A program made the translations under genes and the position numbers. Positions 25,463 through 29,380 of a stretch of DNA of 42,505 bases are shown here, piece by piece. Numbering within the stretch: position 1 is the first letter of the stretch; every line of letters begins with the position of its first letter. Under the pieces are notes generated by a model. That model saw nothing but the letters and a program-made list of their open reading frames with translations, ran no database searches and was not told the DNA's origin. This DNA is from Bacteroidota bacterium. Lineage in GTDB: Bacteria > Bacteroidota > Bacteroidia > 2-12-FULL-35-15. The stretch spans positions 1-42,505 of the forward strand of contig JAHEXZ010000026.1 of the NCBI GenBank assembly GCA_023251835.1. Direction: 5' to 3'.

Positions 25463-26179
25463 TTAAAAGTTCGGTTTGAGCAAGTATTTGGAGTAGAATT
25501 CATTGATAATTATAACTGCTTCATCAGCAGTATCAACAATTTTAAAGAGGTCTAGGTCTTTTTCGCTGATATTATGTTCTACATGTAACATAGTATCCTT
25601 TACCCAGTTCATAAGACCTTCCCAGTATTTTTTACCCACCAGCACAATAGGAAAATGGGCTACTTTATTCGTTTGTATCAATGTAATAGATTCAAAAAGT
25701 TCATCAAGAGTACCAAATCCACCAGGCATAGCAACAAAACCTTGTGAATATTTTAAAAATATTGTTTTACGAACGAAGAAATAATCAAAATTGATATTTT
25801 TGTCATTATCAACAAAAGGATTAGCACTTTGCTCAAAGGGCAAAACAATGTTTAATCCTACCGACTTCCCTCCCCCGGCTTTAGCACCTTTGTTAGCAGC
25901 TTCCATAATACCAGGCCCACCTCCGGTAATTACTCCATAGCCTTCACGAGTAAGCTTAAACGCTATTTCTTCGGCCAGCTTGTAATAAGGATTTTCGGGT
26001 TTAGTACGGGCTGATCCAAAAACAGAAACACAAGGGCCTATACGGCTCATTTTCTCAAAGCCTTCTACAAACTCACTCATAATCTTAAAAATCTGCCAGG
26101 AGTCTGACGCTTTTATATCATTCCAGTCTTTTGACGCAAAGGCTTTGCGTATTTTATCTTCTTCCTGATTTGTCATCAT
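25463..26179 (-). CDS. LOG/TIGR00730-family Rossmann-fold protein
   Basis: 238 residues with the two family signatures: ITGGGPGIMEAANKGA (about 85-99) and MPGGFGTLDE (151-160), the nucleotide-binding and catalytic PGGxGTxxE motif. Plant LOG homologues hydrolyse cytokinin riboside 5'-monophosphates; bacterial members act as nucleotide 5'-monophosphate phosphoribohydrolases. The exact substrate here is unknown. Two adjacent ATGs (26179 and 26176) are equally possible starts. The N-terminal extension (about 1-45) before the Rossmann core is typical of the longer subfamily. It is upstream of the barrel/SPOR cluster on the same strand with 128 bp between, so it is probably a separate unit. Confidence 0.9.
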   Translation of the reverse strand: MMTNQEEDKIRKAFASKDWNDIKASDSWQIFKIMSEFVEGFEKMSRIGPCVSVFGSARTKPENPYYKLAEEIAFKLTREGYGVITGGGPGIMEAANKGAKAGGGKSVGLNIVLPFEQSANPFVDNDKNINFDYFFVRKTIFLKYSQGFVAMPGGFGTLDELFESITLIQTNKVAHFPIVLVGKKYWEGLMNWVKDTMLHVEHNISEKDLDLFKIVDTADEAVIIINEFYSKYLLKPNF

Positions 26180-26237: not shown

Positions 26238-26520
26238 TTGTTAACTGATGTTACGCAAAGAAAAAGATTTAAAAATGATAGACTTTTATACTTGTAATGG
26301 ACAAAAGAATTGATAAAGGATAATTTTCTCAAAAAGACAATAAAAGTGACTGCTTTAAAAAATTCATACTCACTATCATTGTCATTTCGAATCCTGCTGA
26401 AAGCAGGAAGAGAAATCTTTGCAATTGATTGACAAGATTTCTCACTGCGCTCGAAATGACAGGTGGAAATATAGAGATATTCTGAATTAGATATAAATTT
26501 TGCGTAACATCAGTTGTTAA
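26238..26520. mobile_element. MITE-like element with 15-bp terminal inverted repeats and 7-bp target duplications
   Basis: The element proper is 26245-26513 (269 bp). CTGATGTTACGCAAA (26245-26259) is the exact reverse complement of 26499-26513. TTGTTAA flanks both ends (26238-26244 and 26514-26520), consistent with a 7-bp target-site duplication. No transposase frame is inside. The interior is AT-rich and contains a hairpin (26380-26461). The right end lies one base beyond the uvrA stop codon. I cannot assign the family without a search. Confidence 0.7.
26380..26461. repeat. Nested cruciform inside the MITE-like element
   Basis: TGTCATTTCGA (26380-26390) pairs with 26451-26461. Inside it GAGAAATCTT (26410-26419) pairs with AAGATTTCTC (26434-26443). 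The GTCATTTCGA..TCGAAATGAC pattern resembles a dispersed Bacteroidota repeat, from memory. It could have entered the MITE secondarily or be its core. Confidence 0.7.
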
Positions 26521-26521
26521 G

Positions 26522-29380
26522 TTAAACCAAATAATTTTTCAGATAGTTGGCAGTATAACTTACTTCATTTTTAATAATTTCTTCAGGAGTTCCTTTACAG
26601 ATAATGTTTCCTCCCCCATTTCCACCTTCAATACCCAAATCTATAATATAATCAGCAACTTTAATTATGTCCATGTTATGCTCAATTACCAATACTGTAT
26701 TACCACTGTTGACTAGTTTATCCAGCACTTCTAATAATATGCGAACATCTTCAAAATGAAGACCTGTTGTAGGCTCATCTAGAATGTAAAAAGTATTTCC
26801 TGTATCACGTTTTGATAATTCGGTAGCCAGTTTCACACGTTGTGCTTCTCCCCCCGACAATGTAGTGCTTTGCTGACCAAGTGTGATGTAGCCAAGACCT
26901 ACATCCTGCAAAGTCCTTATTTTTTGGATGATGGATGGTATACTTGAAAAAAATTCAACAGCATTATCAATAGTCATGTTTAATACATCACTGATTGATT
27001 TCCCTTTGTAACGTATTTCAAGTGTTTCCTTGTTATAACGTTTGCCATTACATGTTTCACAGTTAACATATACATCCGGTAAAAAGTTCATTTCAATAGT
27101 ACGTACTCCTGCCCCCTGGCAGGTTTCACAACGACCACCTTTTACGTTAAAAGAAAACCGTCCGGGTTTATATCCCCTTATTTTAGCCTCCGGAATCTCA
27201 GCAAACAGGTTTCTGATGTCAGAAAAAACACTTGTGTAAGTAGCCGGGTTGCTTCTTGGAGTGCGCCCTATAGGTGATTGATCTATATCTATTACTTTAT
27301 CAATATGTTCTATACCACTTATTGACTTATAGTTCAATGGCTTTTTCTCTGAACGGTAAAAATGTTTGCTCAATATCGGATATAATGTTTCATTGATTAG
27401 CGTGGATTTACCGCTGCCTGATACCCCGGTTACACAAATCAGTTTTCCCAAAGGAAATTCAACAGACACATTTTTTAAATTATTTCCGGTAGCGCCTTTC
27501 AACACAATCATTTTTCCATTACCCTTTCTTCGCTGTTCCGGAACTTTTATTTTTTTAACTCCATTGATGTATTGAGCAGTAAGCGTATTAATGTTTAACA
27601 GTTCTTTTGGAGTACCTTGTCCAATTATTTTACCACCATGTATACCAGCGTACGGGCCAATATCTATCACATGATCAGCCGCTAAAATCATTTCTTCATC
27701 GTGTTCTACAACAATCACCGAATTTCCTATATCTCTCAAACTTTTCAAAGCACTTATCAAACGCATGTTATCACGTTGATGGAGTCCTATGCTGGGTTCA
27801 TCCAGAATATAAAGCACTCCTACTAACTGTGAGCCTATCTGGGTTGCTAATCGTATTCTCTGAGCTTCCCCTCCCGAAAGGCTTCTGGAACTGCGATTAA
27901 GAGAAAGGTAATCAAGGCCGACATCCAAAAGAAAATGTATACGTGTACGAATCTCCTTTACTATTTCTTTGGCAATAATATTTTGTTTTGTGTTTAACCG
28001 GGATTCAATAGTATTAAACCACTCGCTCAATTCAACAATGCCTAATTCAGATAGTTCTGCAATATTTTTATTGTCGATTTTAAAATATAATGTCTCTTTT
28101 TTCAATCGTGCACCTTCACATTTAGGACAGGTTACTTTATTCATAAAACCCTGCACCCATTTTTCAGTGGCAGGTAAACGTTGTTCCTCATTTTGTTTGG
28201 CAATAAAATTAGCAATACCTTCAAATGCTATACTATAGGCAGTTGCAGCACTATCGGCAGCATGTTTCATTTTAAATATTTCTTCAGACCCAAACAAAAT
28301 AATGTTGATTGCTTCTTCTGAAATATCTTCAAGGGGAGTATCTAAGGTAAAATTATATCTATCACCAATTGCTTCCAGTTGCCGGAATATCCAGGTAGCT
28401 TTATAAGGACCGATTGGAATAATGCCGCCTTTTTTAATGCTATATTTTTTATTCGGAATAATTTTATTGATATCAATTTCAGAAATAACTCCTAAACCAT
28501 TGCATTTAGGACAAGCACCATAAGGTGAGTTAAAAGAAAATAAATTAGGTTGTGGCTCATCGTAAGAAATGCCCGAAGAAGGACACATTAAATGGCGGCT
28601 GTAATATTCCACTTTTCCATATTCATCTCCCAACTTTCCTTTTTCAAAAGGTTGTACCATAATAATACCCTTACCCTGCTTCATGGCTAATTGTAACGAG
28701 TCAGATATTCGCTGACGGGCTTCATTATTAACTTCTAACCTGTCAATTACTATTTCAATATCATGTACCTTATAACGGTCCAATTGAAAACGTTTGGAAA
28801 GTTCTACTACTTCACCATCTATCCGAACACGTAAGTAACCCCACTTTTTTATTTGTTCAAACAGTTCGCGATAATGACCTTTTCTGCCTTTAACAACAGG
28901 TGCCAGTATTAATATTCTTTGTGAATTGAATTTTTCTAATATAAGATGAAGTATCTGCCCATCAGAGTACCTGACCATTTTCTCGCCTGTTACATAAGAA
29001 TATGCATCTGAAGCACGCGCATAAAGAAGACGCATAAAATCATATATCTCAGTAATGGTTCCAACAGTAGAACGCGGGTTTTTATTGACTGTTTTTTGTT
29101 CAATTGAAATTACCGGACTTAAACCGGTTATTTTATCCACATCAGGACGTTCCATATTGCCAAGAAACTGTCTTGCATATGCTGAAAAACTCTCAATATA
29201 ACGTCTCTGTCCTTCTGCATAGATGGTGTCAAATGCAAGAGAAGATTTACCACTTCCGCTCAACCCCGTAATAACTACCAACTGGTTACGGGGTATTGTA
29301 ACATCTATATTTTTAAGATTATGTACCCGGGCACCAACTACTTCAAGGTATTCGACTTCACTTATTATATCTGTAGGCAT
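26522..29380 (-). CDS. uvrA: UvrABC excinuclease subunit A
   Basis: UvrA is the damage-recognition ATPase of nucleotide excision repair, acting as a dimer with UvrB. 952 residues, normal family length. Two ABC ATPase modules are visible: Walker A GLSGSGKS at 39-46 and GVSGSGKST near 651; signatures LSGGEAQRIRLA near 503 and LSGGEAQRVKLA near 841. Zinc modules include CPKCEGARLKKETL (about 418) and CETCQGAG...CETCNGKRYNKET (about 751). The UvrB-binding region (ISIEQKTVNKNPRSTVGTITEIYDF) is intact, while the short CxxC seen nearby in E. coli is replaced by ASDAYSY. ATG start in a normal context. A MITE-like element sits against its stop codon. Confidence 0.97.
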   Translation of the reverse strand: MPTDIISEVEYLEVVGARVHNLKNIDVTIPRNQLVVITGLSGSGKSSLAFDTIYAEGQRRYIESFSAYARQFLGNMERPDVDKITGLSPVISIEQKTVNKNPRSTVGTITEIYDFMRLLYARASDAYSYVTGEKMVRYSDGQILHLILEKFNSQRILILAPVVKGRKGHYRELFEQIKKWGYLRVRIDGEVVELSKRFQLDRYKVHDIEIVIDRLEVNNEARQRISDSLQLAMKQGKGIIMVQPFEKGKLGDEYGKVEYYSRHLMCPSSGISYDEPQPNLFSFNSPYGACPKCNGLGVISEIDINKIIPNKKYSIKKGGIIPIGPYKATWIFRQLEAIGDRYNFTLDTPLEDISEEAINIILFGSEEIFKMKHAADSAATAYSIAFEGIANFIAKQNEEQRLPATEKWVQGFMNKVTCPKCEGARLKKETLYFKIDNKNIAELSELGIVELSEWFNTIESRLNTKQNIIAKEIVKEIRTRIHFLLDVGLDYLSLNRSSRSLSGGEAQRIRLATQIGSQLVGVLYILDEPSIGLHQRDNMRLISALKSLRDIGNSVIVVEHDEEMILAADHVIDIGPYAGIHGGKIIGQGTPKELLNINTLTAQYINGVKKIKVPEQRRKGNGKMIVLKGATGNNLKNVSVEFPLGKLICVTGVSGSGKSTLINETLYPILSKHFYRSEKKPLNYKSISGIEHIDKVIDIDQSPIGRTPRSNPATYTSVFSDIRNLFAEIPEAKIRGYKPGRFSFNVKGGRCETCQGAGVRTIEMNFLPDVYVNCETCNGKRYNKETLEIRYKGKSISDVLNMTIDNAVEFFSSIPSIIQKIRTLQDVGLGYITLGQQSTTLSGGEAQRVKLATELSKRDTGNTFYILDEPTTGLHFEDVRILLEVLDKLVNSGNTVLVIEHNMDIIKVADYIIDLGIEGGNGGGNIICKGTPEEIIKNEVSYTANYLKNYLV

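Follow-up and report, generated by a model that had tools for sequence, protein, structure and literature searches.

A repeat with perfect inverted ends lies between uvrA and a LOG-type gene

The window, that is, the whole 42,505-nucleotide stretch of DNA that we analysed, contains an intact uvrA (26522–29380, minus strand, an ORF of 952 amino acids) and, downstream of it, a LOG-type (lysine decarboxylase-like) gene (25463–26179, minus strand, 238 amino acids), named from the initial annotation and from its sequence. Because both genes are on the minus strand they are co-directional, and the initial annotation was mistaken in calling them facing. Between them, with uvrA as its upstream neighbour, lies a repeat whose 269-bp body (26245–26513) reads as non-coding. 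Its left end, CTGATGTTACGCAAA (26245–26259, plus strand), recurs as an exact inverse, TTTGCGTAACATCAG (26499–26513, minus strand), giving a 15-bp terminal inverted repeat (TIR); when the palindromic AA/TT of the target is included, complementarity between the two arms is 100% across 17 nt. The body is flanked by direct copies of TTGTTAA at 26238–26244 and 26514–26520; the uvrA stop codon lies 1 bp past the second of these and 8 bp from the element, and the LOG start codon is about 65 bp from the other end. An ORF scan of the window found no frame of at least 80 amino acids inside the element. Read directly, the sequence thus bears out the earlier description of perfect ends, matching flanks and no coding sequence. 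The interior contains a palindrome, TGTCATTTCGA...TCGAAATGACA (26380–26461), with two inner hairpins.

The element belongs to a multicopy family inserted in 7-bp duplicated targets

To place the element in its genome (G000; 4.1 Mb in 171 contigs, 96.6% complete), we searched for the TIR, allowing at most two mismatches, and found 125 sites compared with 7 for a reversed control pattern. Roughly 40 whole-element copies are present, with identities of 89–100%, and 37 of them have both ends and were extracted for analysis of flanks and lengths. These complete copies are mostly 269 or 274–276 bp long, differ chiefly by one gap of 5–7 bp, and share a mean pairwise identity of 95.6%, reaching 100%. 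A perfect 7-bp target duplication borders 25 of the 37, whereas shuffling the flanks among copies 2000 times gave a mean of 2.6 such matches and a maximum of 10; six further copies have duplications of 6 bp only, and a few have none. The duplication beside uvrA, which the initial annotation had read from a single copy, is therefore a consistent feature genome-wide. The targets have the nearly palindromic consensus TTANTAA. With ORFs of at least 90 amino acids as a rough proxy for genes, 21 copies have co-directional ORFs on either side, 9 have divergent and 5 have convergent ones; 2 sites are undetermined, and none is inside an ORF. All six frames of the family consensus are closed and contain no remnant of a transposase ORF. 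A short (269 bp), non-coding sequence with perfect 15-bp TIRs, present in about 40 copies with a duplication of fixed length, has the defining features of a MITE.

Congeners lack the element in the same spacer

The uvrA/LOG stretch could be matched in 34 of the 36 genomes of the genus that were searched, and the spacer between the two genes was readable in 27 relatives. In these, the adjacency of uvrA and LOG is kept, the spacer measures 42–264 bp with one exception of 862 bp, and the element is absent from all 27. The spacer in the window is 369 bp long, or 93 bp once the element and one duplication are subtracted. The coding parts on either side are 75–85% identical to those of congeners (about 80% in the nearest genomes; 75–82% for the stretch orthologous to uvrA), and the spacers cannot be aligned at the base level; what the relatives document is therefore absence of the element at the syntenic place. 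The exact empty allele with a single TTGTTAA, for which the initial annotation had proposed a comparison with relatives, was not seen among these unalignable spacers.

Full-length insertion sequences in other Bacteroidia have the same ends

Among 395 genomes of the class, 8 contain the 15-mer AACTGATGTTACGCA. In one of them (G371) it leads to insertion sequences of 1119 bp whose 13-bp ends, CTGATGTTACGCA, are identical to the first 13 bp of the MITE end and enclose one ORF of 355 amino acids encoding a DDE transposase; these elements are bordered by the 7-bp duplications TTACTAA and TTACTTA. The same ends surround a protein 47% identical to this transposase in a second genome (G340), and Pontibacter beigongshangensis has a 1140-bp relative with ends of the same kind and a duplicated TTTTTAA. 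More distantly, Piscirickettsia plasmids contain 1148-bp relatives with the ends CTCACCTTACGCA and perfect 7-bp duplications, TTATTAA or CTTATAA. In some other relatives of the transposase group the flanks are imperfect or unreadable; where the flanks can be read, the occurrence of 7 bp in G371, Pontibacter and Piscirickettsia indicates that this length is a property of the transposase group.

The MITE thus has the ends of a known transposon, with 13-bp identity to the elements of G371, G340 and Pontibacter, but no such partner was found in the same genome. The full-length elements of Bacteroidia have the same ends and 7-bp AT-rich duplications as the MITE; the full-length elements, including those of Piscirickettsia, differ in their length of 1119–1148 bp and in possessing a transposase gene. 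Beyond the terminal 13–15 bp no sequence common to the MITE and the known full-length elements is evident, so nothing identifies the MITE as one of these elements with its interior deleted.

The proteins match the NCBIfam model NF049921 (transpos_IS701_2) at 270.5 and 295.1 bits, above its cutoff of 250, as well as Pfam DDE_Tnp_1 and DDE_5, and score below the cutoff of the original IS701 model, NF033540. Assignment to IS701 by sequence model, which NF049921 provides, is at odds with the definition of that family, in which the duplication is 4 bp and the tyrosine of the YREK motif is mostly lost (De Palmenaer et al., PMC2266710); here the duplication is 7 bp in G371, Pontibacter and Piscirickettsia, and the motif is complete (Y269-R272-E276-K283). 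The 1101-bp ISAba11 of Acinetobacter encodes a DDE transposase homologous to that of G371, at about 25% identity, and has an end, TAGGACTTACGCA, that has TTACGCA at positions 7–13 in common with this group. ISAba11 is filed in IS701 with HHEK in place of YREK, according to Rieck et al. (2012); the aligned columns read Y-R-E-K in our group compared with H-H-E-K in the Acinetobacter element, and two ISAba11-type copies that we read have duplications of 5 bp rather than 7. ISPepr1, a subgroup of IS4, is defined by AT-rich duplications of 7–8 bp, CT ends, a complete YREK and a length of 1500–1600 bp (PMC2266710). Our group resembles it in its 7-bp AT-rich duplication, 5′-CT ends and complete YREK, but is shorter (1119–1148 bp) and falls below the cutoff of all IS4-family models. 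The group is thus homologous to the ISAba11/IS701_2 transposases and lies outside the stated definitions of IS701, ISAba11 and ISPepr1.

Two MITEs of Bacteroidetes offer a comparison. MITECca01 of Cardinium is likewise of modest length (about 240 bp), present in many copies and mostly intergenic, but derives from an IS982 element that is still in its genome (PMC9769881). BrickBuilt of Porphyromonas gingivalis is also intergenic and multicopy and also has another repeat inside, which is a 23-bp minisatellite where the present element has a palindrome (PMC4596501).

The genome itself has no detectable partner transposase

Searches of this genome and of 35 congeners with the G371 transposase gave no match, and the family model NF049921 gave nothing above its cutoff; a weak match at C4:308–628 reaches 20 bits, far under that threshold. 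The viral contigs that we searched contained no relative. The initial annotation had proposed a search of the genome for a full-length insertion sequence that shares the ends and makes a 7-bp duplication; such elements exist, as described above, in other Bacteroidia and were not found in this assembly or the 35 congeners. A number of contigs break off within a MITE copy, so an insertion sequence present in many copies could have escaped assembly. A solo TIR at C149:38325 at first seemed a fitting end of an autonomous element, since the C-terminus of a transposase lies just inside it; the same C-terminus occurs at the ends of three more contigs, where this TIR is lacking, which points to a different multicopy insertion sequence that had landed nearby. 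The four contig ends, on C149, C20, C166 and C137, all stop inside this C-terminus (...NQIRRLKRQAKNLGLQVVEV*), the mark of a multicopy insertion sequence that was left unassembled and has no relation to the MITE.

Two other Bacteroidia genomes contain repeats with these ends, at 26 sites (G101) and 11 sites (G093). Those of G101 are 211–232 bp long, some with perfect 7-bp duplications, and no matching transposase was detected in either genome. Orphan MITEs like these may therefore be widespread.

The interior palindrome also occurs outside the MITE

As RNA, the palindrome at 26380–26461 folds into an outer stem and two hairpins (z −5.8). Its exact arms recur in 41 palindromes of the genome, most of them within MITEs. 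Others, at C53:2640, C73:8841, C114:5264 and C144:39138, lie outside every MITE copy identified and keep the stem with differing inner sequences; free-standing versions are also found in three further genomes (G019, G113, G118), and in G219 a palindrome repeat has the same arms between different constant flanks, CATTATTCA...TGAATAATG. The likeliest history is that the MITE captured one copy of a palindromic repeat that exists independently of it.

The cruciform had been proposed as a terminator for uvrA or the LOG region. This proposal is not supported: our scan of the palindrome found no terminator-like site or U-tract terminator, and the element that bears this cruciform occupies about 40 unrelated, mostly intergenic places. 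An Rfam search returned no family above its gathering score, and a literature text search for the TIR and the palindrome arms retrieved matches that, by title, concern unrelated subjects.

Two minor observations concern palindromes elsewhere. The congener G010 (L225) has a free-standing GTCATTTCGAG... palindrome-like repeat in its uvrA–LOG spacer, where the window has the MITE. G219 has 13 copies of the GTCATTTCGA...TCGAAATGAC palindrome, with constant flanks in the copies read; these may represent another mobile repeat that incorporates the palindrome.

A recently amplified MITE, probably mobilised in trans

A multicopy family, 7-bp duplications and element-free congeners together argue that this is a recently amplified MITE, moved by an IS701_2/ISAba11-like DDE transposase given in trans; we put the probability of this reading at about 0.9. 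The initial proposal of a recent non-autonomous transposition thus holds, with full-length elements that have the same ends as added support. As a MITE, the repeat is a parasitic sequence without genes of its own, and though the kind of mobile element is ordinary, this case of it is well documented; we infer from the copies a recent burst, and from the shared ends a likely mobilisation of the family by a transposase of the IS701_2 type. In the mechanism we propose, a full-length insertion sequence would supply the transposase in trans, and the enzyme would recognise the CTGATGTTACGCA ends and move the 269–276-bp element. AT-rich TTANTAA targets would be cut with a 7-bp stagger, and fill-in would produce the 7-bp duplication. 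The source of the transposase would since have been lost, or would be absent from the assembly only, and the interior cruciform would be dispensable for transposition.

The strong interior fold, and the recurrence of the palindromic core outside the MITE and in other genomes, might instead suggest a conserved regulatory or RNA-coding module of the uvrA–LOG region (a terminator, a REP-like sequence or a small RNA) with a coincidental match of its flanks. This is already contradicted by the scatter of some 40 copies over unrelated loci, where most are flanked by a target duplication of their own; moreover, none of the congeneric spacers read contains the element, and neither the Rfam search nor the scan for terminator-like sites in the palindrome gave any support, so we regard such a module as extremely improbable. 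Somewhat less remote, yet still very unlikely, is that a different transposase, present in this genome, uses these ends, and that the likeness to IS701_2-type elements is a convergence over 13 bp. An assembly whose only trace of an IS701_2 transposase is the 20-bit match on C4 would fit that idea, but 13 identical terminal bases, the 7-bp duplication and a TTANTAA-type target are found alike in unrelated genomes.

The MITE could also be real and now act locally by separating uvrA from LOG, adding a structured RNA and altering LOG expression. Its place directly after the uvrA stop codon and shortly ahead of the LOG start, between co-directional genes, and its strong fold are consistent with such an effect, and the Porphyromonas MITE BrickBuilt has promoter elements (PMC4596501). 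However, no terminator-like site was found in the element. The promoter-like matches are to the sigma-70 consensus, from which Bacteroidetes promoters depart. We consider a local effect unlikely, and the earlier suggestion that the element has become part of gene regulation finds no support beyond its location.

Returning to the amplified MITE, a recent burst and a target rule tied to a type of transposase bear on the proper annotation of genomes of this group, and in this assembly several contig breaks fall in MITE copies. The transposases filed as IS701 include a branch with 7-bp duplications and YREK kept, a difference in mechanism that is concealed when names follow the sequence model alone. 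Were the palindromic core functional, its roughly 40 intergenic copies would become relevant to gene regulation. More speculatively, and with rather low probability, a distinct, apparently undescribed group of insertion sequences (ends CTGATGTTACGCA, 7-bp TTANTAA targets, YREK transposase) may seed MITEs in a number of Bacteroidia families without the transposase. Such MITEs may repeatedly take up the same host palindrome (GTCATTTCGA...TCGAAATGAC) as core, which would suggest that it gives them an advantage open to selection, for instance in stability, in replication or in the insulation of neighbouring genes.

Tandem copies and a second family with the same ends

The genome also contains another MITE family, unrelated to the first but sharing its ends (CTGATGTTACGCATTAAAAAATATAGCTG...), at C43:5320–5573, C53:4845–4960, C86:5976, C10:7828 and C5:71909. 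TTATTTA is perfectly duplicated around the copy on C43, a 7-bp duplication, and a repeat of the CCCC-AGA-GGGGC type lies inside some copies.

In several cases a copy adjoins a further element with ends of the same kind, separated from it by the 7-bp target alone. At C168:75082–75644, two elements are surrounded by three copies of ATAATAA, and further abutting cases occur at C118:34281 and C148:13263 and in other genomes (G021:C453, G101:C67). A simple explanation would be that every insertion, through its duplication, provides a new target of the preferred kind on both sides of the inserted copy. Elements with these ends often follow one another head-to-tail, separated by exactly one 7-bp target (loci L087, L006, L020, L100 and L145).
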